A DNA stretch of 59,329 bases from Erysipelatoclostridium sp. An173 (GTDB taxonomy: Bacteria; Bacillota_I; Bacilli_A; Erysipelotrichales; Coprobacillaceae), in the NCBI RefSeq assembly GCF_002160495.1, contig NZ_NFKR01000017.1:1-59329 (forward strand), written 5' to 3'. The translations under genes were made by a program, and so were the position numbers. Under the pieces are notes generated by a model. That model saw nothing but the letters and a program-made list of their open reading frames with translations, ran no database searches and was not told where the DNA came from. This document shows positions 7,877 to 47,881 of the stretch, in pieces. Positions within the stretch are counted from its first letter, which is position 1; the number at the start of each line of letters is the position of its first letter.

Positions 7877-7923
7877 TGTTACCCTCCCAACTATAAATAA
7901 TTATAGCCAATTTACTTTATAAT

Positions 7924-8859: not shown

Positions 8860-8872
8860 TACTTCTCCTTAT

Positions 8873-8901
8873 TTGTAACCACTTTAATTTTATGCTATAG
8901 T
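8873..8901 (+). promoter_or_regulatory. Promoter of the O-antigen-ligase-like gene
   Basis: TTGTAA (8873-8878), a 17-base spacer and an extended -10 element TGCTATAGT (TATAGT at 8896-8901), followed by GGAGG at 8912-8916 and the ATG at 8923. The leader is only about 15 bases long. Confidence 0.65.
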
Positions 8902-8922
8902 AACAGTACTTGGAGGTCTGTT

Positions 8923-10125: not shown

Positions 10126-10846
10126 ATATGATAACCTTGTGTTTTTTAATAAATATCTACAAATGAATCGCTCAATAAACGGTTTAGATGGTGCTGGTGA
10201 ATGGCATGAACTTAAAAAAATTCTTCCAGATTTTCATGATAAAAAAGTTCTTGATTTAGGCTGTGGTTTTGGCTGGCATTGTAAATACGCCAGCGATAAT
10301 GGAGCCATATATGTTTTAGGAACAGATATTTCTAAAAGGATGTTACAAAAAGCCCAGGAAATTAATAGTGCTGATAATATTGAATATCAGCAAATTGCAA
10401 TGGAAGATTTAAACTTATCGAAAGAAAGTTTTGATATTATTTTGAGTTCTTTAGCTTTCCATTATGTTGAAGACTTTGTTTCTTTAATAAAAAATATTTA
10501 TAACTGGTTAAAACCAGGTGGTGATTTTGTTTTTTCAGTAGAACATCCAATATTTACATCAGCTGGATCTCAAGACTGGTATTATGATGATAATGGTGAA
10601 ATATTACATTTCCCAGTTGATAATTATTATTATGAAGGTAAAAGAGAGGCAATTTTTTTAGATGAAAAAGTAACTAAATATCATCGTACTTTAACAACAT
10701 ATATTGAAACTCTTTTAAATAATGGCTTTTTATTAACTAACATCGTTGAACCACAACCACCTGAAGAAATGATGGATCTTCCAGGCATGAAAGATGAAAT
10801 GCGTCGACCAATGATGTTATTAATCGCTTGTAAAAAACCGCTTTAA
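10112..10846 (+). CDS. Class I SAM-dependent methyltransferase
   Basis: A soluble protein of 244 residues. Motif I is VLDLGCGFGWHCKYA (near residue 46), followed by GTDISKRML and the motif IV region DIILSSLAFHYV, then a loop typical of UbiE/COQ5-like enzymes (LKPGGDFVFSVEHP). It methylates an unknown small molecule. I choose the ATG at 10112; a TTG at 10106 is in frame. Overlap with the preceding membrane gene suggests coupled translation, but a functional link is only inference. Confidence 0.8.
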   Translation: MKENKYDNLVFFNKYLQMNRSINGLDGAGEWHELKKILPDFHDKKVLDLGCGFGWHCKYASDNGAIYVLGTDISKRMLQKAQEINSADNIEYQQIAMEDLNLSKESFDIILSSLAFHYVEDFVSLIKNIYNWLKPGGDFVFSVEHPIFTSAGSQDWYYDDNGEILHFPVDNYYYEGKREAIFLDEKVTKYHRTLTTYIETLLNNGFLLTNIVEPQPPEEMMDLPGMKDEMRRPMMLLIACKKPL

Positions 10847-10850
10847 AAAT

Positions 10851-10880
10851 GGAGACTGATTTATATCAGCCTCCTATTTT
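10851..10880. terminator. Terminator between convergent genes
   Basis: GGAGACTGA (10851-10859) and TCAGCCTCC (10866-10874) form a stem with one mismatch, followed by a T-rich tract. It ends the methyltransferase transcript. Confidence 0.8.
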
Positions 10881-10885
10881 TATAT

Positions 10886-11059
10886 TTAATAAAAATCTTC
10901 AATTTTTACTTTATCACTAATACCAACAATCGTCATCCAAATAACGCTAAATAAAATCAATCCTAATAACCAAAGAGGTACTCCACAAATTATAGTATCT
11001 CTAACCATCAATTCTAATACTATAAATAAGCCTATTGCAATTAACGCGATCCTGTTCAT
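10886..11059 (-). CDS. Small hydrophobic protein, 57 residues
   Basis: A short frame with a strong GGAGG eight bases before its ATG. It reads MNRIALIAIGLFIVLEL, a short basic loop (MVRD), then a second hydrophobic stretch CGVPLWLLGLILFSVIWMT and an acidic tail ending IEDFY. Two membrane segments are predicted. I recognise no family. The clean ribosome site, the lack of stops and the position directly before a terminator support a real gene. It stands alone. Confidence 0.65.
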   Translation of the reverse strand: MNRIALIAIGLFIVLELMVRDTIICGVPLWLLGLILFSVIWMTIVGISDKVKIEDFY

Positions 11060-11156
11060 AATAAGCCTCCTTCATTTTCAATTATATCTTATTCTTTATA
11101 TATATTCGATAATACCACTAATATGTTAAATAAATATTAAATTTTCTCTAGAAATA

Positions 11157-11187
11157 GAAAATGACAGTAAATATTACTGTCATTTTC
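11157..11187 (-). terminator. Perfect 14-bp hairpin
   Basis: GAAAATGACAGTAA (11157-11170) and TTACTGTCATTTTC (11174-11187) are perfect inverted repeats with a 3-base loop. It lies downstream of the small membrane gene at 11326-11505 and may end its transcript, though the following tract is only moderately T-rich. Confidence 0.6.
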
Positions 11188-11325
11188 AAGATTGGAAAGT
11201 TACTCAAAATATATAGGTATAAATTGCATAAAAGGACTAAAACATTATCTTTATACCTACGTTTATTTTACAATAATTTTTATAATCTAAAATCTAATTT
11301 GTCTTAAATGTTTGTTAATTTTTAT

Positions 11326-11505
11326 TTACTTAGTTTCACCTTTAAACGCCAAATAAATAACGCCTAACATAAATGGTATCAATAATACTAATGCTATACT
11401 AGGCAGATTAGTTTTTTCACTACCTGTATAAGCGAAAATATTTGACATATTAGTCCCAATTGTCATCAATCCTGTTAATAATCCCATTCCTACTCTTTTT
11501 TTCAT
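11326..11505 (-). CDS. Small secreted or membrane protein with C-terminal anchor-like tail
   Basis: Starting at the ATG at 11505 (AGGTG six bases before it) the protein has 59 residues. A basic N-terminus (KKRVG) and hydrophobic run ending in an Ala resemble a signal peptide; then YTGSEKTN, a hydrophobic segment LPSIALVLLIPFMLGVIYLAF and a charged end. The layout (T-G motif, hydrophobic stretch, positive tail) recalls a sorting signal, but no true LPxTG is present. Longer starts at 11511 and 11514 are possible. Function unknown. Confidence 0.55.
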   Translation of the reverse strand: MKKRVGMGLLTGLMTIGTNMSNIFAYTGSEKTNLPSIALVLLIPFMLGVIYLAFKGETK

Positions 11506-11581
11506 CTTCATCACCTACAGCTTTTATTATATTTAAAAACAGTATTTAAAATAGACAAAGACAATTAAGTTTATGTAAATA

Positions 11582-12355
11582 TTATCCTAAGGCAACATCC
11601 AAGATCATCATAATAACAAACCCAATGGCAAAACCGATTGTTGCAAGATTACTATGTTCTCCCTGAGAAGCTTCTGGTATTAATTCTTCAACTACAACAT
11701 AAATCATTGCTCCAGCTGCAAAAGCTAATAAATATGGCAAAATTGGTACCATCTTAGAAGCAAATAGAATAGTTATAACAGCACCTGCTGGTTCAACAAT
11801 ACCTGATAACAGTCCATAAAGAAAAGAACGATTTTTTGATAAGCCACTAGCTTTTAATGGCATTGAAATTATAGCTCCTTCAGGAAAATTTTGTATCGCT
11901 ATACCGATTGATAAAGCAATCGCTCCAGCAAAAGTTATGTCTTGATTCCCAGAAAGAAACCCAGCAAATAACACTCCTACTGCCATTCCTTCTGGTAGAT
12001 TATGCATTGTAACTGCTAATATTAACATTGTTGTTTTTTTCAAATGACTTTTAGGTCCTTCAGCTTTATTATCTAAATGCATATGCGGAATCATATGATC
12101 TAAAAATAACAAAAATAAAATTCCTAACATAAAACCAATCGCTGCTGGTAAAAATGATAATTTTCCCATTGAAGCCGACATTTCCATCGCTGGAATCAAC
12201 AATGACCAGACCGATGCAGCAACCATGACTCCTGAAGCAAAGCCAAGTAACAGCTTTAGTACATAATTATTGATTTTATCTTTCATAAAATATACACAGG
12301 CAGCACCGGCAGTAGTTCCAAAAAACGGAATTAGAATTCCCCAAAATATTTCCAT
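11582..12355 (-). CDS. ZIP-family divalent metal transporter
   Basis: A 257-residue, eight-helix membrane protein. Helix 4 carries HNLPEGMAVGV (near residue 118) and helix 5 NFPEGAIISMPL (near 160), the two metal-binding motifs that define ZIP carriers; a His-containing loop (DHMIPHMHLDN) lies between helices 3 and 4. It brings zinc, iron or manganese into the cytosol. It is a single gene; no metal regulator or box is visible beside it. Confidence 0.88.
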   Translation of the reverse strand: MEIFWGILIPFFGTTAGAACVYFMKDKINNYVLKLLLGFASGVMVAASVWSLLIPAMEMSASMGKLSFLPAAIGFMLGILFLLFLDHMIPHMHLDNKAEGPKSHLKKTTMLILAVTMHNLPEGMAVGVLFAGFLSGNQDITFAGAIALSIGIAIQNFPEGAIISMPLKASGLSKNRSFLYGLLSGIVEPAGAVITILFASKMVPILPYLLAFAAGAMIYVVVEELIPEASQGEHSNLATIGFAIGFVIMMILDVALG

Positions 12356-12495
12356 ATTACATTCCTCACTTATTAATTTTTATCATCTTATATATAATCT
12401 CCAATATCTAAATAACGGAAAATAATTAAACTATATTTTGGCTATATTCTAGCTTATCCGATTTTTACATGCAATTTATATGATAATAAATCATT

Positions 12496-12936
12496 TTACT
12501 CATCAATTACTGATGTACAATGAGGACATCTTGAAGCTTCAATATTTATCTCTTCTTTACAAAAAGGACATATTTTTACTTTAGCTTCAGCTTTATTTTC
12601 TTCACCAATTTTTGCTTTAATACTTTCATTAATTGAATTAACTAACTTTATCAAAGCAAAAAGAATAAACGCAACTATTAAAAAATTAATTACTGCCGTA
12701 ATAAAACTGCCATAAGCTAATACCGGAGCATTTTTACCACTCCCTAAAACTAATTTTAAATTTGAAAAATCAACACCACCAAATATTCCTAATATCGGTG
12801 TAATAATATCATTATTTAAAGAAGTAACAATTGTGGTAAAAGAACCCCCAATAATTACCCCAACAGCCATATCAATTACATTACCTCTAGTAATAAATTT
12901 CTTAAATTCTTCAATAAGATTTTTTCCTCTTTTCAT
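12496..12936 (-). CDS. mscL: Large-conductance mechanosensitive channel with zinc ribbon
   Basis: The N-terminus (LIEEFKKFITRGNVIDMAVG) and GVIIGGSFTTIVTSL are the highly conserved first helix of MscL, which opens under membrane tension during osmotic downshock. The second helix and a charged tail follow. The protein ends with CPFCKEEINIEASRCPHCTS, a four-Cys zinc ribbon, making it a little longer than most MscL. Two ATGs (12939, 12936) are possible behind AGGAGG; I use the second. Confidence 0.92.
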   Translation of the reverse strand: MKRGKNLIEEFKKFITRGNVIDMAVGVIIGGSFTTIVTSLNNDIITPILGIFGGVDFSNLKLVLGSGKNAPVLAYGSFITAVINFLIVAFILFALIKLVNSINESIKAKIGEENKAEAKVKICPFCKEEINIEASRCPHCTSVIDE

Positions 12937-13027
12937 CATCTAACCTCCTAATAAATACATTAAAACAAAAAATGTCTATTTTAGTCAATTAAGTAAACAA
13001 AAAAGTAACTATGACAAACATAGTTAC

Positions 13028-14935
13028 TTAAAGATAAACACTTAAACATTTTTGTTTAAAAGCAAACACTGATAACAAATATGCCAGATAAAAGATAACT
13101 AGTATTATTAATGCACTAACAACATTTATAATAAATAAATCTGTTTGCATTGTATTGGCAAGTGCCTGAACTGAAAAGCAGGAAGTAATTACCATTAATA
13201 CAAATGGACAATAATAAGCAAAGCGAATTTCATTTTTAATTGATTTTGATAATACTCGATCACTAATGCCCATTTTTCTTAAAATCTGATAACGTTCACG
13301 GTCTTCATAAGCTTCATTGCTAACCTTCATAAAAATAATACTACCACTAGCTAAAATAAAGACAATAAATAAGAAAATACAAATAGAATAAGTAACACGA
13401 ACCCAGGCAATATCACTATATAAAGGATCAAGCGCTACATAACCAACAGCTCCTCCTTCACTTTCAACTAAAGAATCTAAATATCCAATTGATGCCTGAT
13501 AATTATTAGGATCAGCAATTTTATAATTATAAATATTTATTTCGTTACTTGTTGTTTGTAATTGTTTATAGACATTATCATTTACAACATAAGTATTAAT
13601 ATTTTCTTGAAGAATTCCTAAATAAGATGTATTAGTTTCATCTACTATTTGATATTCCTGGTTTTTAATGGTAATAGTTGGATTACTTACTGGATCAGAA
13701 ATATCTATTAAATATAATCGGGTTAATTGAATTACTTGATTATCATTTAACTCTGGTAAATCAAAATCAATATTAGCTTTTTTAGCCAGTTGTTTTAATT
13801 GACTATATGACACGATTCCATTAGCAGTATATGTGTACTTACTACTTACATCTTCATCGTTTAAAGATAGCATTGTATATGAATTAGAAAATTCTACTTC
13901 ATTAGTTTTAGAGATTTCATCAGCTATTTGTTTTTCATCTAACTGTTTACTAGCTGTAATTGTATAATTATAAGTATCTCTAAAATGAGCAATACCGTCA
14001 TAGCGTTCTTTCATTGCAAATGCAGTAGCTAAAACAGTTACTGAACAAATCATTAAAATCGTTACAATCGCATAAGTACGGTAATTCTTTTTTAATCTAA
14101 AGGCGATATTATTAACCCATAATGTTCTTTGTTTTTGATATAGATATTTTTTATTACCTATTAATTTATAGATTACAAATGGAATAACACCATCATACAA
14201 AAAGTAAATACCCACGATTACTAAAACAACTGCATAAAGAATATACATAAATGATGTTAGATCACCAACCTGCAATGCACAGTAGTAACCAGCAATCAAC
14301 AATATCATACCTATTATTGCTTTAATAGTAGCCAAAATACCATTAGTAACCTTTAGTTCATTTTGTTTAGAAGCAGATAGCATTTCTACAACACTGCTTT
14401 TTACAATATTGATATATCCTTTAATGATCATTATCGCAAAAATAACTATAAACAAACTAATCGAAATTATAAATGGTGCTAAAGTTAATTTAAATGATAC
14501 ATCAACACTAATGTTAGAAAGAGCTAATAAAATCATTGTAAACAATTTAGAAAAAATTATCCCGGTTCCAATTCCAATTATTAATGATAATAAAGCTACT
14601 AAACTAATTTCAATTACATACATTTTACCAATCTTACCATTGTCTAGTCCCATAAATGTAAAGATTCCAATTTCTTTTTTTCGCTGTGCTAAAAAGACAT
14701 TTGTAGCATACCAGATAAAGAAAAAGACAAAGATAACAAATACAATCGAAATAACTTCAATAATAGTTGTAATATAATCACTATTTCGATCTTTTAATAC
14801 ATCCATTGCTCCTGAAAAAGCAATATTTTGAAAATTAAAGAAAACGAAAATCGAAAACGATAATGAAATAATTAATGACACATAATTTTTAATACTTCTT
14901 TTAAAATTAGAATACGCTAGTTTAAATAAACTCAT
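13028..14935 (-). CDS. BceB-like ABC transporter permease (FtsX domain)
   Basis: A 635-residue permease with about ten membrane segments. The N-terminus MSLFKLAYSNFKRSIKNYV and the FtsX segment FLAQRKKEIGIFTFMGLDNG (near residue 83) match Bce-type permeases; a large extracellular domain (residues about 310-510) holds the peptide-sensing region. The final FtsX repeat has YEDRERYQILRKMG. Its start overlaps the ATPase stop by 4 bases (ATGA). In the BceAB family this protein frees lipid II-cycle intermediates from antimicrobial peptides and signals to the kinase. The drug recognised here is unknown. Confidence 0.88.
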   Translation of the reverse strand: MSLFKLAYSNFKRSIKNYVSLIISLSFSIFVFFNFQNIAFSGAMDVLKDRNSDYITTIIEVISIVFVIFVFFFIWYATNVFLAQRKKEIGIFTFMGLDNGKIGKMYVIEISLVALLSLIIGIGTGIIFSKLFTMILLALSNISVDVSFKLTLAPFIISISLFIVIFAIMIIKGYINIVKSSVVEMLSASKQNELKVTNGILATIKAIIGMILLIAGYYCALQVGDLTSFMYILYAVVLVIVGIYFLYDGVIPFVIYKLIGNKKYLYQKQRTLWVNNIAFRLKKNYRTYAIVTILMICSVTVLATAFAMKERYDGIAHFRDTYNYTITASKQLDEKQIADEISKTNEVEFSNSYTMLSLNDEDVSSKYTYTANGIVSYSQLKQLAKKANIDFDLPELNDNQVIQLTRLYLIDISDPVSNPTITIKNQEYQIVDETNTSYLGILQENINTYVVNDNVYKQLQTTSNEINIYNYKIADPNNYQASIGYLDSLVESEGGAVGYVALDPLYSDIAWVRVTYSICIFLFIVFILASGSIIFMKVSNEAYEDRERYQILRKMGISDRVLSKSIKNEIRFAYYCPFVLMVITSCFSVQALANTMQTDLFIINVVSALIILVIFYLAYLLSVFAFKQKCLSVYL

Positions 14936-25364: not shown

Positions 25365-28116
<2,752 letters not shown>

Positions 28117-28157
28117 AATTTTTTCCTCCCATAATTAGTTTAGCTAAACGTTTAATT

Positions 28158-35220: not shown

Positions 35221-35250
35221 AAAAAATAACCAGGCTTTAAACCTGGTTAT
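35221..35250 (-). terminator. Terminator of the EIIC-RarA-C operon
   Basis: ATAACCAGG (35226-35234) pairs with CCTGGTTAT (35242-35250), with six U after it on minus. Confidence 0.9.
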
Positions 35251-35255
35251 CATAA

Positions 35256-36539
35256 TTATTTATCTGTTCCTTCTTTTTCAGCTAATGATTTTTCATAAAC
35301 TTTGAAGAATGGATAATATACTACAATACTTATTGCAATTAATACACACATAAAGATTACATTTCTAAAGTCTAATGCTGAAAGGAATCCTTGTGCAAAG
35401 AATGGTGTAAATGATGGATCAACAATATATCCCATACTAACCCATCCTAATGATTGTGCTAAATATCCTAAATAAATTGAAATACATGGCATTAATACAA
35501 ATGGAATTGCAAGAATTGGATTTAAGACAATTGGCCCACCAAAAATAACCGGTTCATTGATACCACAAATTCCTGGTACTACACTTAATTTTCCAATTGT
35601 TCTTAAATGTTTTACATGTGAAAAACACATTAATAATACTAACCCTAGTGTGTTTCCACCACCACCAAGAACTGCATAACGATACATTTGTAAATTCATA
35701 ACATTTTCAGCTGCTTTTCCAGCGTTAACTAAATCTGCATTTAATCCTGAATTAGTTACCCCTAATGTAAAGACAATTGGGAAAATAATTGAAGATCCAT
35801 TAATACCAAATAACCATAAAATATTTGAAAAAGCAAAAATTGCCATATAAGCCCAAATATTATCAACACCTGATATCGCTGGTGTTAAAATACTCATAAT
35901 AAAATCTGGTAATGATTTACCACTTGCTGCCATTAAAATTAAATTTAAACCATAAATAACAATAATATTAGCAGCTAATGGAATTAATGAATTAACAAAG
36001 TTTGTTACGGCACTAGGTACACTACCAGGGAAAGTGAATACTACTTTATTACCAACAACCCGACAGATTTCAACTGATAATAAACCAACGATCAAAGCAA
36101 CGAATAAACCATCTGCTCCTAAATAAGTCATTGCAAGTTTACCATCTTCTACTGGTGCACAAATCATTAAGAAAACACACATAGAGATGATACCACTGAT
36201 TGCTGCTTTCATCTTATAGCTTTCAGCTAAACTATAACCAACACCGAATGCTGTTACTAAACCAATTAATCCCATTGTCATTGTATATGGAATTGTAATT
36301 GTATTATAATTAGCTACCGCCCATTGTTTCCAGGCAATTAAAGCTTTCATAAAGATATTACCTGTATCAAGATCAACTAAATCTAAATTAATTGGCGGAT
36401 TTGCAATAATTAAAAATATTGAACCGACTACAATTAACGCTAAAGACATCATCATCCCATTAGAAATGGCTTGTAAATGTCTTTGGTTCCCTAATTTATC
36501 TGATAATGGCGCTAACCATTTTTCTAATTTATTAATCAT
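35256..36539 (-). CDS. PTS permease EIIC, lactose/cellobiose family
   Basis: 427 residues and about ten membrane segments. The opening KLEKWLAPLSDKLGNQRHLQ, the motif LFGINGSSIIFPI and VVPGICGINEPVIFGGPIVLN (with the sugar-binding Glu) assign it to the CelB/LicC group. It has Gly-Ile-Asn where many members have G-I-H. No EIIA or EIIB nearby. It is cotranscribed behind the RarA-C-like gene at a distance of 18 bases. Confidence 0.88.
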   Translation of the reverse strand: MINKLEKWLAPLSDKLGNQRHLQAISNGMMMSLALIVVGSIFLIIANPPINLDLVDLDTGNIFMKALIAWKQWAVANYNTITIPYTMTMGLIGLVTAFGVGYSLAESYKMKAAISGIISMCVFLMICAPVEDGKLAMTYLGADGLFVALIVGLLSVEICRVVGNKVVFTFPGSVPSAVTNFVNSLIPLAANIIVIYGLNLILMAASGKSLPDFIMSILTPAISGVDNIWAYMAIFAFSNILWLFGINGSSIIFPIVFTLGVTNSGLNADLVNAGKAAENVMNLQMYRYAVLGGGGNTLGLVLLMCFSHVKHLRTIGKLSVVPGICGINEPVIFGGPIVLNPILAIPFVLMPCISIYLGYLAQSLGWVSMGYIVDPSFTPFFAQGFLSALDFRNVIFMCVLIAISIVVYYPFFKVYEKSLAEKEGTDK

Positions 36540-36557
36540 CCTTGTTCCCCTTTTTTA

Positions 36558-37157
36558 TTAAAATTGCCAACCATTAAATTTAAATGCTGTTTCACAAACA
36601 TTTTCTGGATCATATTCTTCTAAAATCTTAGCATATCTTTCTTTATAATCATTATCTACTTCTTTTTGTGGATATACTTTGCTTGCTTCATTTAAGAAAT
36701 GGAAAGAATCTCTACCCATTGCTTGCCCTCTAACAGTATGTTTATCCAATGCATAATCAGGAATTTCAGGGAATTTTCCCATTGCAAATGATTTAATACA
36801 AATATTTTTTAATAAATCACTTGAACGATCTTTTTCAGATTGACATAGATATCTAATCGCATGAATGAAATACATTGGACGATCACCATCTGAATAATCA
36901 AATTCTCTACTCATTTGATATAAATTATTAACCATAATTGCTGCCATTGGATTACCCATTCCAATGTCTTCTACTGAAATTGTTAGAAGTCTACGCCATA
37001 ATTTTTCTTCTAATTGTGGTGAAGAAATGTATAATTCATATGCAAACATACAAGCTTGTTCTTCTAACCCTCTTCTAATTGATTTTTGTAATGCAGAAAT
37101 TACTTCATCCCCCGCATAACCATTTCTAGTCGTTATTTTTGACCATGGATCGTACAT
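36558..37157 (-). CDS. Stand-alone RarA/MgsA C-terminal-like protein
   Basis: 199 residues with no AAA+ ATPase domain. GDEVISALQKSIRRGLEEQA (near 18) and KLWRRLLTISVEDIGMGNPM (near 53) match the conserved helices of the C-terminal tetramerisation domain of RarA/MgsA, where the motif reads like A-R-R-L-x-x-x-x-x-E-D-I-G. The rest is helical. It is the first gene of the operon with an orphan EIIC. RarA itself acts at stalled replication forks; what the free domain does beside a sugar permease is unknown. ATG at 37157; an in-frame TTG at 37163 lies closer to the AAAGGAG. Confidence 0.7.
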   Translation of the reverse strand: MYDPWSKITTRNGYAGDEVISALQKSIRRGLEEQACMFAYELYISSPQLEEKLWRRLLTISVEDIGMGNPMAAIMVNNLYQMSREFDYSDGDRPMYFIHAIRYLCQSEKDRSSDLLKNICIKSFAMGKFPEIPDYALDKHTVRGQAMGRDSFHFLNEASKVYPQKEVDNDYKERYAKILEEYDPENVCETAFKFNGWQF

Positions 37158-37212
37158 TTTCAACCTTGCTCCTTTCTTTTTTCTGTGACATAATGAATAA
37201 GAGGTGGCGTTT

Positions 37213-37881
37213 ATGAATATTCAACATTTAATTGAAAAGTATGAATTAAATAATTTGGAAAAACAGATTGTATCTTACATGCAAAAAAATATTTCTCAAT
37301 TAAAGTCTATTGGCATACGTCAAATGGCAAAAGACAACTATACTAGTACCTCAACTATCTATAAACTATGTAATAAATTCGGTTTTAAAGGCTACAGTGA
37401 TATGATTTATCATCTGACATCTGCCAAGGATACTACTATCAACTTCAATGAAAAATATCTTGATTATAAAAAAGAATTTTCTTCATTAATGAGTGATAAA
37501 TCTAAACGAATTATTGTTTTTGGCTTAGGCTTTTCAGCTCCTATTGCTGAATATATTCAACAACGATTAACTTTAATGGGCTATCAAGCACTTTGCGTAG
37601 TTCACATGGAAATGTTTAGTCAGGTATTTTTTGAAAATACTCTTATGATTGTAATTTCTTATTCTGGCAAAACACGTCGTTTAAGTGAAATTGTTACTAC
37701 TGCTTCTAAAAACAATATTCCTATTATTAGTTTTATTGCTAGTAAGGAATCGCCAATATATCAAGATTCTACTTTACCAATTATTATTGGTAAATATGAT
37801 TCTTTTTTACATGACAACAGTAAACCAAATTTCTTTTTTGGTGAAACCATAATTGCTTTTGAAACACTCTTGTTCGACTAA
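37213..37881 (+). CDS. RpiR-family regulator with SIS domain
   Basis: 222 residues. The helix-turn-helix is IRQMAKDNYTSTSTIYKLCN and the SIS domain IIVFGLGFSAPIAEYIQQRL, then LMIVISYSGKTRR. It is divergent from the RarA-C/EIIC operon with about 55 bases between start codons, so it should regulate that operon and itself. I use the ATG at 37213 behind GAGGTG; a GTG at 37204 is in frame. Confidence 0.82.
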   Translation: MNIQHLIEKYELNNLEKQIVSYMQKNISQLKSIGIRQMAKDNYTSTSTIYKLCNKFGFKGYSDMIYHLTSAKDTTINFNEKYLDYKKEFSSLMSDKSKRIIVFGLGFSAPIAEYIQQRLTLMGYQALCVVHMEMFSQVFFENTLMIVISYSGKTRRLSEIVTTASKNNIPIISFIASKESPIYQDSTLPIIIGKYDSFLHDNSKPNFFFGETIIAFETLLFD

Positions 37882-39285: not shown

Positions 39286-39312
39286 TAAAAAGGAGCTAAT
39301 TTAAAGCTCCTT
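39286..39312 (-). terminator. Terminator of the mannoside operon
   Basis: AAGGAGCT (39290-39297) pairs with AGCTCCTT (39305-39312), with U-run on minus; includes the GH3 stop codon. Confidence 0.85.
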
Positions 39313-41511
39313 AGATACAACCACTTTAAATTCTTGATAGTTTTGACTATCTTGTCCAACACAAACAAGAACTTCACCTGGCTCAACTGTAAAATTCATA
39401 AACTCATCCCATAAAGCAAAATCTTCATATGTAAGAGTTATTTCAACATTTGTTTTAGATGATTTAGGAACAAATACTTTTTTAAATCCTTTTAATTCTA
39501 AAACTCTAACAACAATTGAGGCATTTAAGTGTTTTAAATATACTTGAACTACATCTTTACCATCGTTGTTACTTAAATTACAAACATCTAAAGAAATTGT
39601 AAAACCTTCTTTTTTTAACTGCTGTAAACTAATTTTACTAGGCATGTTTATATTTTTATAAACAAAATCAGAATAACTTAAACCATATCCAAATGGTAAT
39701 AATGGTCCTGGTGCTAAATCAACATAATCTTTTTGAGCGCCATTATATTTATGATTATAATAACATGGTAATGCTCCTACATGACGTGGTAAAGACACTG
39801 TTAAATGACCGCTTGGATTATAGTCACCAAACAAGACATCACTGATACCATCACCACCACGAGCCCCAGGATAAAAACTTGCAAGGACTGCTTTAGAATA
39901 TTTTAAAACCTGATCAATTACATGAGGTCTACCTTGAATTAAAACAGTAACAATATTAGGATTAACTTTACTAACTTCTTTTAATAACTTATTTTGATAA
40001 CCTTCTAATTCTAATGAAGCTAAATCAATATTTTCACCACAATTCATTTCATTATGCTCCTGTATTTTTAAAGCCCCATTATTTTCAAAAGCATTTTCAT
40101 ATAAACGAGTACTATTACCCCCTAATACTAAAACAACTACATCAGCTTCTTTAGCTATTTTTAATGTTTCATCAAGATTTTCAAATTGCTTAAGCCGAGT
40201 TGTACATCCTAAAGCATAAGCTGGTTTATACTTAGTTTTTTTAGCAATCCCTTGTAAAACAGTAACAATATCCTTTTCTTCTTGATAAGCGGTATAATCA
40301 CCTAATTGATTTAAATAATTATTTGCATTAGGACCAATAACAGCAATTTTTTTATCCTTAGATAGTGGCAAAATATCATTTTCATTTTTTAGTAATGTTT
40401 GACATTCTCTAGCACATTCAAGTAATAAGTCACCACTTTCAGGTAAAGAAATATTTTTAGAATCGTTAAAAAGACCTAGTTTTTCTTTTAGTTTTAAAAC
40501 TCTAATAACAGCCTCATCTAACTCTTTTTCTTGCAGATAACCTTGTTTAATAGCCTCTTCTAATTTTAAATAAACTTGATCCCAAAGGCTTAAATCAACC
40601 CCAGCCTTTAATGCTTTACTAGCCATTAGTAAAGGATTATTATTCATCAATAACAGACGATCTAAAGCACAGCCATCAGCCATTACAATTCCTTTAAAAC
40701 CATATTCTTTTCTTAATATATCACTAAGAAGATTTTTATTAACATGACAAGGAATACCATCAATTTCATTATAAGCAGCCATGACCGCTTTAGCTTGAGC
40801 TTTACTAGCCGATTGAACTGGTGGTAAATGAATTTCTCGAAGTTCACGCATCCCAATATTAGCTGCATCGGAATTATGTCCACCAACACTAGCACCTTGT
40901 CCACATAGATGTTTAACAACAACTCCAACACCATTATCTTCTTTTTGAAAACCAGTAACTGCTGCTTTAACCATTTGACTTGTTAAAAAGGAATCTTCAC
41001 TAAAACATTCTTCACTACGTCCCCAGCGAGGATCTCTTAAAACATCAAAACCAGTAAATAACGCTAAGTTTCCACCTTTAGCTGCTAATTCCTGGCTAAC
41101 ATTTTGACTTACTCGTTCCATTAAATCAACATCCCAAGTCATTCCCATTGCTAGTTGAGTTGGAAATACTGCACTTTTTAAAGCCATGTGACCATGAACA
41201 CATTCTTCACTAATTAAAGCTGGTATTTTAAAACGAGAATGATCTTTGATATATTCTTGAATCATTGTAATAACTTTAAAACTATCTTCTCTACTAATTC
41301 CGTTATCTTTGTCGATTTTAGACCAGGCATCAGCGCGCATGATTCCATAAATAGCTCCAACACCGCCAAATTCTTTAACATGATTTTTAAAAGTATCTGT
41401 TAATTCATAGTGATCATCAACTTTTTGATAACATTGCCAGCCATATAAATGTTGATTTAACTGACCAACTTTTTCTTTTATTGTCATTTGCTCTACAATT
41501 TTTTCTATCAT
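39301..41511 (-). CDS. GH3 beta-glycosidase
   Basis: 736 residues with the three usual parts: a barrel (1-330) holding the nucleophile Asp in GFKGIVMADGCALDRL (near 278) and KHLCGQGASVGGHN; a sandwich domain (about 370-580) with KKIAVIGPNANNYL; and a C-terminal fibronectin-type domain (from about 640). No signal peptide, so it acts in the cytosol. It likely removes beta-linked glucose or xylose, or N-acetylglucosamine; the specificity is not readable. Last gene of the EIIC-GH38-RpiR-GH3 operon, 18 bases after the regulator. Confidence 0.88.
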   Translation of the reverse strand: MIEKIVEQMTIKEKVGQLNQHLYGWQCYQKVDDHYELTDTFKNHVKEFGGVGAIYGIMRADAWSKIDKDNGISREDSFKVITMIQEYIKDHSRFKIPALISEECVHGHMALKSAVFPTQLAMGMTWDVDLMERVSQNVSQELAAKGGNLALFTGFDVLRDPRWGRSEECFSEDSFLTSQMVKAAVTGFQKEDNGVGVVVKHLCGQGASVGGHNSDAANIGMRELREIHLPPVQSASKAQAKAVMAAYNEIDGIPCHVNKNLLSDILRKEYGFKGIVMADGCALDRLLLMNNNPLLMASKALKAGVDLSLWDQVYLKLEEAIKQGYLQEKELDEAVIRVLKLKEKLGLFNDSKNISLPESGDLLLECARECQTLLKNENDILPLSKDKKIAVIGPNANNYLNQLGDYTAYQEEKDIVTVLQGIAKKTKYKPAYALGCTTRLKQFENLDETLKIAKEADVVVLVLGGNSTRLYENAFENNGALKIQEHNEMNCGENIDLASLELEGYQNKLLKEVSKVNPNIVTVLIQGRPHVIDQVLKYSKAVLASFYPGARGGDGISDVLFGDYNPSGHLTVSLPRHVGALPCYYNHKYNGAQKDYVDLAPGPLLPFGYGLSYSDFVYKNINMPSKISLQQLKKEGFTISLDVCNLSNNDGKDVVQVYLKHLNASIVVRVLELKGFKKVFVPKSSKTNVEITLTYEDFALWDEFMNFTVEPGEVLVCVGQDSQNYQEFKVVVSKEL

Positions 41512-41529
41512 TTCTATCTTCCTGCTTAT

Positions 41530-42291
41530 CTATAAATATCTTTTATTATATAAATATTGATTAACTATTTCTCTTAATAAATATTCAATCGCCAAATGAA
41601 TATGTAAACGGGAATCAATATCATATCCTTCATCTTCTGAAACTGAAACATTGATTACATAATCTGATAGTCTAGTCATTGGCGCAGCCTTTTTTTCAGT
41701 AATCAGCAATATTTTACAACCACTAAGTTTGGCATTTTTCATCGCATCAAGGATTGATTCCGTTGCGCCACTGCGCGAAAGTACAATAACAAAGTCATCC
41801 TTGGTAAGATTATTAGCTTCTAAATATAAAAACCAGCTATCATCAGGATAAATTGTTCTAATTCCATATAAACTTAATTTAACTGCTAATATTTTAGCTA
41901 CATATTTATTCATTCCTGATGAACAAATAAGAACACTTTTAGCATTAACAATATCTTTAACGGCATCATCAATATCGACACTTCTAAGCATTGTCATAGT
42001 ATCACGGATTTCTTTTTCCATTGTATCTAAAGCGTCTTTACTAGATTTTTTATAAACAAATTCATCTTGACGCTGATATAAAAGATCATAGCGAAAATCC
42101 ATAAATGATTTATAATTTAGTTTTTTTACCATTCTAAAAATAGTAGTTGTTGATACATTTAATGCATCGGCAAGTGAGGATATTGTTAGACTGGGTTCTA
42201 AATTTTCAAAAGTTAATAATTTTTGAAATGACTCAATTTCTAATTCTGTTAAGTTATTACCATACTTCTGAAAGTTTTTGATTAAACTCAT
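41530..42291 (-). CDS. RpiR-family regulator of the mannoside operon
   Basis: 253 residues; helix-turn-helix ISSLADALNVSTTTIFRMVK and SIS domain VLICSSGMNKYVAKILAVKL, then DFVIVLSRSGATES. It lies inside the operon between GH38 and GH3, so it probably senses a mannose-derived sugar phosphate. Start at 42291 with AAAGGATGG before it; a longer frame begins at 42312. Confidence 0.85.
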   Translation of the reverse strand: MSLIKNFQKYGNNLTELEIESFQKLLTFENLEPSLTISSLADALNVSTTTIFRMVKKLNYKSFMDFRYDLLYQRQDEFVYKKSSKDALDTMEKEIRDTMTMLRSVDIDDAVKDIVNAKSVLICSSGMNKYVAKILAVKLSLYGIRTIYPDDSWFLYLEANNLTKDDFVIVLSRSGATESILDAMKNAKLSGCKILLITEKKAAPMTRLSDYVINVSVSEDEGYDIDSRLHIHLAIEYLLREIVNQYLYNKRYL

Positions 42292-42334
42292 CCTTGGGTA
42301 CCATCCTTTCATGTGAAAATAGAGTAGAAAAAAT

Positions 42335-44980
42335 CTACTCTATTATAACAGTAATGAAAGTATTTGCCATAATGTTTTTAATTAAAATTTGACCGTTTTC
42401 ATTTTCTAACTTTTCAAGTTTCTCTTCTTGAACATTAGCCAAATAACACTGCTTATCTTTAGATAATGTAAGAATTACCTCTGCAACATCGTCATCACGA
42501 TTATTTAAGATTCGAACAACTGATCCATTACCTTGTTCACATTTTTTATAAGCCATCAATTCAACTCTTGGATCTAATTTGAAAATACTATTACACCAAG
42601 CTAAGTTATCATTTTTATGACGACTAATATCATTTAAATAACGACTTTGTACTGGCGTATTTAAAACTTCAGCATTTCTAATTAAATCACTCATTTGATC
42701 AGCTTTTCCTAAAAAAATTGAGTATTCACTAGTAATTGATTTATCTAATAGTTGTGAAGATGGAGTATCCATTCGATATCCAGAAGATCTACCTGGTCTA
42801 ATTAATAAATCAGCTTTTCCAAATTTACCAACACTTCTAAGTAGTGTTAAACATAGACGTTGGTTAGCTTCAACTTCATATTCTAAAGGACCTTTACTAA
42901 TTAATGCCATAATTGAATTTTGGTGATTCAATTTAACAAAACGTTGCATTGCATAAATTGGTAAAACGTATTCTGTTGCACCATCTTCTAAACTTTTTTG
43001 ATTTCCAATTACATTATCTCTAATTATTGTTCCAAATTGATCTTGACTACAGTTTTGTAAAGATTCATATAAATCATCAAAAGTAACTCGTACGATGTGA
43101 TCTGATGAATGATTTTCAACTGTTGTTTTAAAATCAATTGTTTGACTATTAGCTTTTAAAGAAACATCACTAATTATATTTAATTCTTTTAATTCAGCAA
43201 CTCGATGATGATCAACAACCTTTTCAGGAACCATTGTCTTATATACAAGTCGATATTTGACTTCAATTGGAGATGATTCAATTAAGGTAATAGTTGGTTT
43301 AGTATCGTTAAGACAAATTTCTTGATCATCAACACATGGTGAATAATTATATTCATCACCATCATCACCTTTTTCAACAAAAGTATTTAAATTACGATAT
43401 GTTTCGTTAGTGATTTTGTTTGTTGCAGTAACTGTTCCATTAGCTTCTATCTTAATTTTTAAATATTTATTTTCAGCTCCGTTTTCAAAAACAGTCACAT
43501 CACCATCAATATTATTTTCGGTTGTTTCATTAAAGCATACTTTTAATATTTCATAACCCATTGCTGGTAAAAATGAAGTAGCTATTTTTAGTTGAACTTT
43601 AAATTTAGTTCCTTCTAATACTTCTCCAGAATCATGGAAATTTTCCATTCCATTATAATATTCAATATCGTGACAAGTATCAATTATTTCATTTGTCAAT
43701 TGATAAGGCACAATTGAACCATCTTGTCTTTTTAAAACAAAGTCTTTATTTTTAACGATCATACTAACAAAAGCATAATCATTTCTTTGATATGGTAAGG
43801 TATTAAATAAAACTAAAATATCTTCATTTTCTTTTAGTGAACTTAAATCTGTTTTTTCAGCTAAATATCTAAAATTCATCCAGATTAGTTCATTTAAACC
43901 ATGTCGTAAATTTAATAAACGATTTTCAACTGTATGATTGATACTATCAGGTGATGAACTATAAATTGAATCATGGAATTGATTTTTGAAAATTATCTTC
44001 CAGAAATAATTAACTAGTTCTTGATCACAGTAACCACCTAATGCTCGAGTAATCCCAATCATTGGTTCAACAACTTTAGCCATCATTGTTTCATAATAAC
44101 GCATGGCATTTTTGATATCAATTCTAGTTGAAGTAATTCCAGCGTGAATTCTTCCTAAAGCGGCACTACGAGCCTCTCCTTCATAAACATTTAATTGATG
44201 ATTATTATTTTTAGCTGCTTGTAACAATGTATCTAAATAATCTTCTGGATTATTCATTTGACAGTTATAACCATCTTTTTTTAATTGTTCAATTGTCTTT
44301 GAGGCATGTCTTCTTGGAAAAGCGTAATCACTACCAAGCATGAATAATACTTCTTGATCTTGATAACGAGCTTTTAATTTAGGAATAAAATTTTCCATAT
44401 CTTTTTTTACTTCCTGATAATCTTCAGGAAAACCACGATAATGTCCATAACCCAAGGCAAAATGAACTGCTGGTAAAACAGTATTGCCATTTCCTTTCCA
44501 TAAAAACAATGAATCATCTAAACATTCGTAATCAAAACCACGCCAAGCATAGACACCTTTCATTCCTAATTCTTTAAATAAATAAGGTGTAACTTTGTTT
44601 TGACCAAAAGCGTCCGGTACCCAGCCAACATTCATACAATGTCCTAATGAGCTAGCATATTTTGAACCTACTAATAAATTTCTAATTAATGCTTCACCAG
44701 AAGGAATAATCATATCTGGCTGGACATACCATGGACCAATTAATAATTTTCTTTCAGTAACCAGTTTAGTAATCTTTTCTTTTTGATATGGTTTAATCGC
44801 TAGATAATCTTCTAGAGCTGCTGTTTGCCCATCAAATGTAAAATATTCCATTTTGCTGTCATTTTCCAGCATATCGATTAATCGATCAAAAAAGTATACT
44901 AATTTAATTCTTGAAGCGTCTGTTGAACGAAGCCATTCACGATCCCAATGAACATGAGGGATAAAATGTATTCTACTCAA
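42335..44980 (-). CDS. GH38 alpha-mannosidase
   Basis: 881 residues. The N-terminus has IHFIPHVHWDREW with zinc-binding His and Asp, GPWYVQPDMIIPSGEALIRN, and VGWVPDAFGQN with the nucleophile Asp (near 123). Length and start resemble E. coli MngB. I place the start at a TTG (44980) that overlaps the EIIC stop by 8 bases, behind AAGGTG; the next longer frame adds residues that do not look conserved. No signal peptide, so it acts on an imported, probably phosphorylated, alpha-mannoside. Second gene of the mannoside operon. Confidence 0.9.
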   Translation of the reverse strand: MSRIHFIPHVHWDREWLRSTDASRIKLVYFFDRLIDMLENDSKMEYFTFDGQTAALEDYLAIKPYQKEKITKLVTERKLLIGPWYVQPDMIIPSGEALIRNLLVGSKYASSLGHCMNVGWVPDAFGQNKVTPYLFKELGMKGVYAWRGFDYECLDDSLFLWKGNGNTVLPAVHFALGYGHYRGFPEDYQEVKKDMENFIPKLKARYQDQEVLFMLGSDYAFPRRHASKTIEQLKKDGYNCQMNNPEDYLDTLLQAAKNNNHQLNVYEGEARSAALGRIHAGITSTRIDIKNAMRYYETMMAKVVEPMIGITRALGGYCDQELVNYFWKIIFKNQFHDSIYSSSPDSINHTVENRLLNLRHGLNELIWMNFRYLAEKTDLSSLKENEDILVLFNTLPYQRNDYAFVSMIVKNKDFVLKRQDGSIVPYQLTNEIIDTCHDIEYYNGMENFHDSGEVLEGTKFKVQLKIATSFLPAMGYEILKVCFNETTENNIDGDVTVFENGAENKYLKIKIEANGTVTATNKITNETYRNLNTFVEKGDDGDEYNYSPCVDDQEICLNDTKPTITLIESSPIEVKYRLVYKTMVPEKVVDHHRVAELKELNIISDVSLKANSQTIDFKTTVENHSSDHIVRVTFDDLYESLQNCSQDQFGTIIRDNVIGNQKSLEDGATEYVLPIYAMQRFVKLNHQNSIMALISKGPLEYEVEANQRLCLTLLRSVGKFGKADLLIRPGRSSGYRMDTPSSQLLDKSITSEYSIFLGKADQMSDLIRNAEVLNTPVQSRYLNDISRHKNDNLAWCNSIFKLDPRVELMAYKKCEQGNGSVVRILNNRDDDVAEVILTLSKDKQCYLANVQEEKLEKLENENGQILIKNIMANTFITVIIE

Positions 44981-46313
44981 GAACAACACCTTCACTCTCT
45001 GCTTCAATACTATTTTGTTTAATTTGTAGTTTTACAAATGGATAATATAAAATTAAATCAATAATAAATAGTACTATACATAAAACAACCGGACTCATTG
45101 TAAAGGCACCAAGTACCCATGCATTAACAAAAATTGGTTCAACCCCAGAGTTCAATACAACTAAATGGTTTACTAAGCCCCAAGATGTTGCAAAGTAACC
45201 GATAATTGCATTAACAACTGGTACAAATACAAATGGAATAAACATAATTGGATTTAATACGATAGGTAATCCAAATGTTACTGGTTCATTAATACCAAAT
45301 AATCCTGGAATAATTGCAACTTTTCCAATTGATCTTTCGGCAGAACCTTTTTTACCTAATACTAATAATAAGACAACTAAAGCTAATGTTGATCCAGAAC
45401 CACCAATCATAGCGTAAACATTACATAATGTATTTGGTGCTACTTCTGTAATTTTATCAAAAGATCCTGTTTCCACAAAAATTTGAATGTGTTCATAGAA
45501 AATTGGCATCCATAATACTGAAATTAGACCCCACATGATTGAAAAACCATGAACTCCAAAGAACCATAATAATTGCATAATAATAATTACTAAAATAACA
45601 GCTGGTAATCCAGTACCAATTCCGTTTAATGGTGTAATAATAAATTGTGTAAATAATTCTTGTAGTGATGCAAATCCACATGAAGTTACAATCTCTTTAA
45701 TTCCTGAAAAAACAACCATGATTACAAAAAATGGAATAATTGATAAAAATGAACTCAATACCATTGGTGGAACTTGTCCAGGTAATTTAATTGTATATTT
45801 TGAATTAACTAAATGATAATATAAGTATGCAGATGCTAATCCAATAACCATTCCTGTAAACATCCCTTCATAATTGAAGAAGTTAATTTGGAATGCAGTA
45901 ATAGTTGAATCACCAACATCAATTGCATTTGGAATAGTAGCAATATAAGCAATTAATGATACAACACAAGCTACTAAAGGAACACATTTATCACCTTTTT
46001 TATTTCCTTTAAGTTGAGTAGCATAATTATAAGAAGAAGCTAATACAACAACTAAACCAGTAAGCCCCATTGCTACTGTATTAATATTAGCGAATGTATC
46101 AACAATACTTCCAAAAATACCATCTAATGATATTCCCCATTCACCACACCAGTAATTGGCTTGTTGACTAATTAGTCCTGCTAATGAACCAACAACTGTA
46201 AATGGGCTGGTTAAAATACAAGCGTCTTTAATCGCATTTAATAATTTGTTTGCGGTAATTTTATTAGAAAACGGCATTAGATATTTTTCTAATAATGACA
46301 TAATAAATTTCAT
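44973..46313 (-). CDS. PTS permease EIIC, lactose/cellobiose family (mannoside operon)
   Basis: 446 residues with about ten membrane segments. FFGVHGFSIMWGLI and IPGLFGINEPVTFGLPIVLN (near 340) carry the family signatures. It is the first gene of an operon with GH38, RpiR and GH3, so the likely cargo is an alpha-mannoside. No EIIA or EIIB is encoded in the window. GGAGG lies 11 bases before the ATG; an ATG four codons later (46301) is also possible. A cre site covers the promoter region. Confidence 0.88.
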   Translation of the reverse strand: MKFIMSLLEKYLMPFSNKITANKLLNAIKDACILTSPFTVVGSLAGLISQQANYWCGEWGISLDGIFGSIVDTFANINTVAMGLTGLVVVLASSYNYATQLKGNKKGDKCVPLVACVVSLIAYIATIPNAIDVGDSTITAFQINFFNYEGMFTGMVIGLASAYLYYHLVNSKYTIKLPGQVPPMVLSSFLSIIPFFVIMVVFSGIKEIVTSCGFASLQELFTQFIITPLNGIGTGLPAVILVIIIMQLLWFFGVHGFSIMWGLISVLWMPIFYEHIQIFVETGSFDKITEVAPNTLCNVYAMIGGSGSTLALVVLLLVLGKKGSAERSIGKVAIIPGLFGINEPVTFGLPIVLNPIMFIPFVFVPVVNAIIGYFATSWGLVNHLVVLNSGVEPIFVNAWVLGAFTMSPVVLCIVLFIIDLILYYPFVKLQIKQNSIEAESEGVVLE

Positions 46314-46350
46314 TTTCTTATTTTCCTCCCTTTGACAACTACAAGTATAT

Positions 46351-46364
46351 AAAAAGCGCTTTCA
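46351..46364 (-). promoter_or_regulatory. cre (CcpA site) of the mannoside operon
   Basis: On the minus strand CTGAAAGCGCTTTTTA has the symmetric core GAAAGCGCTTT of the best CcpA sites. It lies about 40 bases before the EIIC start and next to a TATATA tract that may be the -10, so CcpA binding would stop initiation. Confidence 0.75.
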
Positions 46365-46407
46365 GATTTGAATTACAGAACTGGTAATATTTTTTCTAAA
46401 GATCAAA

Positions 46408-46433
46408 TAAAAAAAGAAGGAGTTTATCCTTCT
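46408..46433 (-). terminator. Terminator of the GH125 gene
   Basis: AGAAGGA (46415-46421) pairs with TCCTTCT (46427-46433), with seven U after it on minus. It separates GH125 from the EIIC operon. Confidence 0.85.
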
Positions 46434-46467
46434 TGAAAAATTATACTGATTTTTCACATATAAACAA

Positions 46468-47733
46468 TTATTTAAGACATGTTTTAATAATCAATTCTGC
46501 AAATAATGAATTAGCCCAGCAAAACCACTCTCTAGTATACTTGCTATCATCGTTTACATCAAAACTTTCATGACAATATCCAGTATTACCGGTATTATTT
46601 ACAATCATTGAAATAAGTTCATTAATTTCATCAGGATCATTAGAAGTTAATGCCTGCATAGTAAGTGCTATTGGCCAAACATATTCTTTCCAAGTATGGG
46701 GTGAACCAATTCCTTTTGCCAGTTTTCCTTGATAATAATATGGATTATCTTTACTTAAAATAAATTTACGAGTATTTTGATATATTTCATCATCAATATC
46801 AGTATATTCTAGATAAGGAATTGAAAGTAAACTAGGAACGTTAGCATCATCCATTAGCACATGATTACCATATCCATCAGTTTCATAAGCATAAATTTTA
46901 CCATATTTAGGATGTAAGTAAGTCCCAAATAATTCAATTCCATAATCGATTTGAAATTTTAAATCAATAATTCTTTCCTTTAAATATTGATCATGGTATA
47001 TTTCATCAACAATTTGCTCTAAGTATCCTAAAACAACACTACAAAACATATTACCAGGAATATTATAATTTAAAGCACAAGCATCATCACTTGGTCTAAA
47101 AGCACTCCATGTCATTCCCGTATAACGGGTATCAAAACCATGACCATGATTTTGTAATGTTTCTGTTTTTCTTAGATTCCATTTTTTAGCCATATCTCTT
47201 TCAAATGTATATGATGATTTTTGACTATGATATTGTTCTGTTTCAATTGTATCTAAGAAAACATTAATAAAATGTAAGTATGTTTGATCGAAAATAGAAG
47301 CATCATTACACTGACGATAATATTGATAGGCTAATTTGATTGGATAACATAATGAGTCAACTTCATATTTTCTTTCCCATACATATGGTTTCATGATGGT
47401 AGTATCATGATATTCTCTTATAGTATCTTCAGTGTTTAAAAAAGCATTAGCATAAGGATCTAATAAAACATAATCAATTTGAGCTTTAATCAATCCTTTG
47501 ATTTTTAATCTTAGATCTTCATCATCATTAATATAGTCTAGATAATGATTTACCTGACAGCTAGAATCACGTAGCCACATAGCATTAATATCACCAGTGA
47601 TAATATAAGTTTTATCGCCTTCAACTTTCATACTTGTTTCTATTGTTGATAGAAAACATTTTTTAAACATTTCTTTTAACTTTTCATCTTTAATAACTGT
47701 ATCTGCTTTTTCTAATAATGTTTGTATATTCAT
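46468..47733 (-). CDS. GH125 exo-alpha-1,6-mannosidase
   Basis: 421 residues. ITGDINAMWLRDSSCQVNHY (near 45) and TGMTWSAFRPSDDACALNYN (near 215) are the conserved motifs of this family (once DUF1237). GH125 enzymes of gut and oral bacteria remove alpha-1,6-linked mannose from N-glycan cores. No signal peptide. GGAGG before the ATG at 47733. It is a separate transcript just upstream of the GH38 operon; together they suggest N-glycan or mannan fragment use. Confidence 0.88.
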   Translation of the reverse strand: MNIQTLLEKADTVIKDEKLKEMFKKCFLSTIETSMKVEGDKTYIITGDINAMWLRDSSCQVNHYLDYINDDEDLRLKIKGLIKAQIDYVLLDPYANAFLNTEDTIREYHDTTIMKPYVWERKYEVDSLCYPIKLAYQYYRQCNDASIFDQTYLHFINVFLDTIETEQYHSQKSSYTFERDMAKKWNLRKTETLQNHGHGFDTRYTGMTWSAFRPSDDACALNYNIPGNMFCSVVLGYLEQIVDEIYHDQYLKERIIDLKFQIDYGIELFGTYLHPKYGKIYAYETDGYGNHVLMDDANVPSLLSIPYLEYTDIDDEIYQNTRKFILSKDNPYYYQGKLAKGIGSPHTWKEYVWPIALTMQALTSNDPDEINELISMIVNNTGNTGYCHESFDVNDDSKYTREWFCWANSLFAELIIKTCLK

Positions 47734-47881
47734 AATTACCTCCATTTTCTACCTTACCACTTATTTTATTTATGTCTATTTCTAGTAAAGTAAATTTTTT
47801 TCAGCTTATAATATATAATTATATAGTTAAAGATACTTTGTTATCAAGATAAGCAGGCTTTTCTTTTGTTGTAAATATAAT

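Follow-up and report, generated by a model that had tools for sequence, protein, structure and literature searches.

RarC, a free-standing homolog of the C-terminal domain of the replication-fork ATPase RarA (MgsA), is encoded next to a sugar-transport gene in Erysipelatoclostridium sp. An173. We coined the family name here for free-standing proteins of this type. In cells, members of the family are tied to sugar-transport genes, and in phages they are tied to glycosyltransferase genes. By alignment and tree, RarC constitutes a lineage distinct from RarA with conserved residues of its own, and in this lineage the RarA collar fold has probably been put to new use in the chemistry of sugars or nucleosides. 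The window, as the term is used below, is the whole stretch of 59,329 nucleotides that was analyzed, and its features are collected in Table 1.

Table 1. Positions of the RarC operon, its regulator, and other PTS-related genes in the window
Feature	Position	Strand	Basis or remark
Free RarA C-terminal-domain homolog RarC, 199 aa	36558..37157 (including stop codon)	-	Open reading frame, Pfam, PDB, AlphaFold
PTS EIIC, lactose/cellobiose family, gene 2 of the operon	35256..36539	-	TIGR00410, above cutoff
Intergenic stretch, 18 bp, Shine-Dalgarno-like for EIIC	36540..36557	-	Sequence
Predicted intrinsic terminator, 12-pair stem and T run	35225..35251	-	4 bp past the EIIC stop
RpiR-family regulator, divergent, HTH_6 and SIS domains	37213..37881	+	Pfam; GTG at 37204 is an alternative start
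Short divergent control region	37158..37212	.	Between RarC and RpiR
GH3, RpiR/SIS regulator, GH38, second EIIC, GH125	39301-47745	-	Resembles a separate mannoside-type PTS group
Third EIIC-like open frame	26776-28134	-	

Relation of RarC to the RarA C-terminal domain

A first-pass annotation of this DNA had read the first gene of the operon as the RarA C-terminal domain without its ATPase part and had named a profile search as one of the checks. The search found the relation. The Pfam family MgsA_C (PF12002) matched RarC residues 51 to 171 at 6.3e-9 with 36.4 bits, against a cutoff of 27, and PDB entry 2r9g, a C-terminal fragment of E. faecium RarA, matched residues 10 to 150 at 6e-12. The AlphaFold model of RarC (pLDDT, 92.6) aligned to 2r9g with a Z score of 16.6 and to E. 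coli RarA (3pvs) with a Z score of 16.0, followed by clamp-loader collars with Z scores of 9 to 10; the structural-alignment rows (VIA-align) cover mainly RarC residues 4 to 110. The full-length RarA profile aligned to RarC by its C-terminal part alone, positions 274 to 423 of 459, and detected no ATPase remnant elsewhere in the window. The protein of 199 amino acids thus has the C-terminal collar fold of RarA and no AAA+ ATPase with a Walker A motif. In RarA, the C-terminal collar fold serves oligomerization. Two full-length RarA-type ATPases, frames of 445 and 429 amino acids with MgsA_C scores of 233 and 150 bits, are encoded on other contigs of the same genome (loci L001 and L002; contigs C24 and C90), and RarC is therefore no broken rarA. 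Some matches were rejected as RarC: those at L100 to L102 are full-length RarA-like ATPases, and the one in Bacillus phage SP-15 is a full-length RarA of 429 amino acids that is therefore uninformative on RarC and hypermodified bases.

Conserved residues and phylogeny

Alignment of 36 RarC homologs revealed 49 invariant columns. Twelve positions, T10, E18, R29, E41, W54, R111, D114, D134, A136, G144, R149, and F154, are shared by cellular and phage RarC and are seldom or never found in the 33 RarA domains compared. In the combined alignment, S21, K25, R28, R56, E63, D64, K109, and P133 are common to RarC and RarA, and D138 and H140, invariant in RarC, are found in roughly half of the aligned RarA domains. 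The residues specific to RarA (D10, G29-S30-D31, N111, and Y153) do not appear in RarC, which has R29 for G, R111 for N, and H153 for Y. The window protein carries the whole RarC signature, consisting of QKxxRR, ED, KxR, and DxHTxxG, with no ATPase attached. The tree separates all free proteins from all RarA proteins (SH-aLRT, 100) and unites the cellular RarC proteins in one group (SH-aLRT, 95); these values come from one quick run with SH-aLRT as its only support measure, 33 RarA domains from few phyla, and several long-branched rows, and the branching order within the viral RarC set is unsure.

The RarC operon in the window

The first-pass annotation had placed three genes here, with the RpiR regulator facing RarC, and this layout stands as described. 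The RarC frame starts at an ATG, and a TTG at 37163 is a possible alternative. Between the RarC stop and the EIIC start lies a GGGG stretch that resembles a Shine-Dalgarno sequence. This stretch, the narrowness of the gap that holds it, and the terminator after EIIC are the reasons for predicting that RarC and EIIC are very likely cotranscribed as a two-gene operon; for the terminator prediction, shuffled sequences gave a mean of 0.9, and the same inverted repeat is listed for the other strand too. Cotranscription of RarC with an orphan EIIC had been asserted at first pass; the 18-bp gap and the terminator agree with the predicted cotranscription, and a search of the window found neither IIA nor IIB. 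The EIIC operon of the window therefore has no IIA or IIB of its own, which sets it apart from a complete lactose/cellobiose PTS operon. A TTATGTCA-like stretch lies upstream of the RarC gene and, judged by eye, recurs in related Erysipelotrichia. Neither a TAGT-type glycosyltransferase gene nor a ParB gene adjoins the window RarC gene; these neighbors belong to the phage relatives only.

Neighbors of RarC in cellular genomes

Lack of conservation of the gene neighbor had been named at first pass as a possible refutation, and a survey showed that the neighbor is conserved. A related EIIC cluster was found at 67 of 75 RarC loci from Bacillota, Fusobacteriota, and Collinsella, and it lay within 7 kb of RarC at 68 of 80 loci. 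The two genes are close, with gaps of -13 to 43 bp in 36 of the 38 pairs measured, and in many species they make up the entire operon. An adjoining EIIC of the lactose/cellobiose family is thus a conserved feature of RarC. Operons in other species add IIA, IIB, a BglG-type regulator, GH4, nucleoside phosphorylase, and phosphopentomutase, with IIA and IIB within 7 kb at 30 to 32 of 80 RarC loci.

For comparison, we used 40 loci of other lactose/cellobiose-family EIIC genes, hand-picked from one list of matches in related genomes. GH1 was rarer near RarC (1 of 34 loci versus 10 of 40; P = 0.009). Within 7 kb, PNP (15 of 80 RarC loci versus 0 of 40 control loci) and DeoB (10 of 80 versus 0 of 40) were commoner near RarC, and GH4 was counted at 11 of 80 versus 4 of 40. 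All of these counts are suggestive only, because closely related species are present among the RarC loci and the 80-locus set contains some genomes twice. On 34 chosen RarC loci, PNP was present at 4, versus 0 of 40 controls (P = 0.04), as one among several comparisons. The link to nucleoside genes is concentrated in related Erysipelotrichia. One RarC locus (L226, positions 7856 to 9078) has two adjacent RarC copies in an operon with EIIC, IIA, IIB, GH4, PNP, and DeoB.

The more divergent family members have other neighbors. At L231 (genome G109), the genes to one side of RarC encode a Bmp/PnrA-type binding protein, an ABC ATPase, and a nucleoside hydrolase, and an ADP-ribosylglycohydrolase is encoded to the other side; L230 (G144) has a similar layout, judged by gene size, and its RarC adjoins a GH1 gene on the opposite strand. 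RarC comes after a sugar-type ABC transporter in a fecal clone (L097). In addition to these members, L023 has GH31 and NAGidase near RarC. No clear sugar context was seen at the RarC copies of L058, L225, and L228. Since GH31 with NAGidase, GH4, PNP, and nucleoside hydrolase vary from locus to locus, we claim no single sugar.

Distribution

RarC relatives with 53 to 98% identity in the best segment were found at 58 loci in genome contigs. Carriers include Erysipelotrichia, Clostridia, Fusobacterium, Cetobacterium, Enterococcus, Vagococcus, Trichococcus, Oceanobacillus, and Collinsella, among others. Within the genus of the window, some species have the gene and others lack it. A close relative was present in 9 of 392 genomes of a broad sample, with a distant free copy in 1 more, and in 2 of 291 and 2 of 198 genomes of two other samples, the center genome counted. 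RarC copies also reside on Enterococcus and Cetobacterium plasmids. Being patchy and rare, RarC is an accessory gene and probably a mobile one.

On E. faecium DO plasmid 3 (L092, positions 7977 to 13279), an IS110 transposase gene separates RarC from EIIC, and on the far side of EIIC comes a gene for an IS256 transposase. Haloarchaeal plasmids (L095, L285, and L286) encode RarC relatives of 261 to 265 amino acids, two of them near ring-hydroxylating dioxygenase genes and one near nucleotide-sugar enzymes. The RarC of a Bradyrhizobium plasmid (L094, positions 6091 to 8543) has a TIR-domain gene and phage-like genes nearby. The fecal record L097, which also encodes RarC, is titled "Bacteriophage sp." and is possibly bacterial DNA.

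Phage and viral relatives

The RarC-family profile matched at least 80 IMG/VR contigs, mostly at 28 to 43% identity, and among the matches listed nearly all frames are near 200 amino acids long and have no ATPase part. The search applied no selection for neighbors. Among the matches listed, a TAGT-type glycosyltransferase cluster occurs on 63 of 77 phage RarC contigs and a ParB-fold protein on 54 of 77; for phage RarC proteins below 50% identity, the counts among the matches listed are 23 and 21 of 31. The TAGT assignment comes from one tested cluster member, which matched Pfam TAGT at 4.7e-10. In 50,697 phage records, the TAGT protein had 57 matches, 56 of them in Microbacterium phages, and RarC likewise matched 56 Microbacterium phage records, an agreement by count and not accession by accession; these phages are close kin and amount to about one case. 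In one of them, ClearAsMud, gp86 to gp89 encode ParB, a glycosyltransferase, UDP-glucose dehydrogenase, and RarC, in that order.

Longer RarC variants with the same signature occur in two other phages. In Rhodobacter phage RcZahn, the variant lies beside a deacetylase, an epimerase, an aminotransferase, and a methyltransferase, with a glycosyltransferase four genes on and ParB five genes before, and in Stenotrophomonas phage DLP3, it lies near a UDP-glucose epimerase. N6 methylase also occurs near phage RarC, as do Mom and ArdC in one case each. ParB-fold genes have been reported in phage DNA-modification neighborhoods (PMC12783734). Foldseek paired the RarC model with larger giant-virus proteins, two of which bear the name putative glycosyltransferase. 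Two phage frames annotated "AAA-ATPase," at L185 (4953 to 5672; 239 amino acids) and L186 (4983 to 5603; 206 amino acids), consist of the C-terminal part only, and judging from these translations the label is a misnomer for the phage RarC forms of 206 to 239 amino acids read here.

Proposed function and alternatives

What these contexts share, as we read them, is a sugar attached to some other moiety, in imported phosphoglycosides and nucleosides in cells and through glycosylation in phages. Of the functions offered at first pass, a sugar-metabolism enzyme fits best, as inferred from context. Our leading proposal, which we put just short of probable, is that RarC is a collar-fold enzyme acting on a glycoside- or nucleoside-type substrate. 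EIIC would import that substrate with the help of IIA and IIB encoded at other loci of the genome, and RarC would perform an early cytosolic step on it. The putative active site would be made of charged residues, for which K25, R28, R29, R56, E63, D64, K109, R111, D138, and H140 are candidates, and RpiR would control the RarC-EIIC pair via a sugar phosphate bound by its SIS domain. The invariant polar residues could alternatively serve assembly or nucleic acid binding. Speaking against the proposal are also the RarC copies that have no clear sugar context, the two haloarchaeal copies near dioxygenase genes, and the concentration of the nucleoside-gene link in related Erysipelotrichia. A bolder form of the proposal, in our estimation a long shot, would make RarC a new enzyme family whose active site arose from a clamp-loader-like collar and accepts a sugar-bearing nucleoside or a sugar nucleotide, used by phages in DNA glycosylation and by gut Bacillota in eating glycosylated nucleosides imported by the PTS; the sugar-bearing nucleoside as substrate is a conjecture.

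Roughly in order of merit, the rivals are an EIIC adaptor, a nucleic acid binder, and a RarA modulator. RarC might be a nonenzymatic partner or sensor of EIIC, an adaptor or regulator whose collar combines oligomerization with small-molecule sensing. The commonest arrangement, RarC and EIIC alone with small or overlapping gaps, is what such a partner would predict, and RarA is established to use the same fold for oligomerization; however, the phage relatives keep the signature where glycosyltransferase and ParB recur, not EIIC, and we regard this role as unlikely, if worth taking seriously. We are more doubtful that RarC binds nucleic acid, meaning modified-base DNA in phages and an operator or RNA in cells. 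Conserved basic residues point that way, as do phage neighbors that include candidates for DNA modification or antirestriction (TAGT, ParB, N6 methylase, Mom, and ArdC), but nucleic acid binding by itself leaves the tight EIIC link and the cellular nucleoside enzymes unexplained.

It had also been suggested at first pass that RarC may modulate RarA when a sugar is present; it would do so by entering RarA oligomers via the common collar fold. The fold and the core residues S21, K25, R28, R56, E63, D64, K109, and P133 are indeed shared, and two full-length RarA-type ATPases are there as targets, but RarC and its viral relatives split from RarA with maximal support, the RarA-specific positions are replaced (R29, R111, and H153), and the contexts are those of sugar or glycosylation, not repair. 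Tree, residues, and phage neighbors thus lend the suggestion no support, and we consider it improbable; the fold, tree, and neighbor data of this analysis contain no tie of RarC to DNA repair. That a C-terminal domain stands alone could also suggest a decayed or truncated rarA fragment beside a PTS gene, an idea that can be dismissed with near certainty given a gene intact in dozens of genomes, the 49 invariant columns, the single tree group of cellular RarC, the missing ATPase remnant, and the full-length RarA elsewhere.

Under the bolder form of the enzyme proposal, with an active site in the collar, the part of that site retained by RarA would hint at an unrecognized RarA ligand. The collar fold is thus found not only in a widespread replication-fork ATPase but also in a free-standing family of its own, which occurs in Bacillota, Fusobacteriota, and Collinsella, on rhizobial and haloarchaeal plasmids, and in many phages; Foldseek matched giant-virus proteins as well. 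Text searches on the Pfam MgsA_C family and on free RarA C-terminal domains, in a literature collection with few subscription journals, found no description of the free family; the fold is known, and the free lineage is apparently undescribed. If RarC were assigned a function, this would account for proteins that at present carry the label "hypothetical" or "AAA-ATPase," would give phage glycosyltransferase islands a further component, and would prompt one to ask which ligand the conserved residues in the C-terminal domain of RarA itself bind.

Comparison with known systems

RarA/MgsA (WRNIP1 family) has a C-terminal domain whose fold and core residues are common to RarC, which scores above the Pfam cutoff. 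However, RarC has no AAA+ ATPase, lies on a separate side of the tree, and has its own DxHTxxG motif, along with R29, E41, W54, R111, D114, D134, G144, R149, and F154 at positions where RarA usually has other residues. Like RarC loci, PTS operons of the lactose/cellobiose type that carry an RpiR or BglG regulator combine EIIC with the regulator and sometimes with IIA and IIB. They differ in that GH1 is rare by RarC, RarC fills the place adjacent to EIIC, and the window lacks IIA and IIB. The window protein also matches phrog_33349 (labeled "ATPase") and phrog_16866 (unknown function), both free-standing and bearing the RarC signature, but phage proteins of this type, which often bear the annotation "AAA-ATPase," recur beside TAGT-type glycosyltransferase and ParB and not beside PTS genes. 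The cellular RarC operon has no glycosyltransferase, in contrast to the phage TAGT/ParB islands, for which DNA modification is a putative role and which give phage RarC a sugar-handling context in common.
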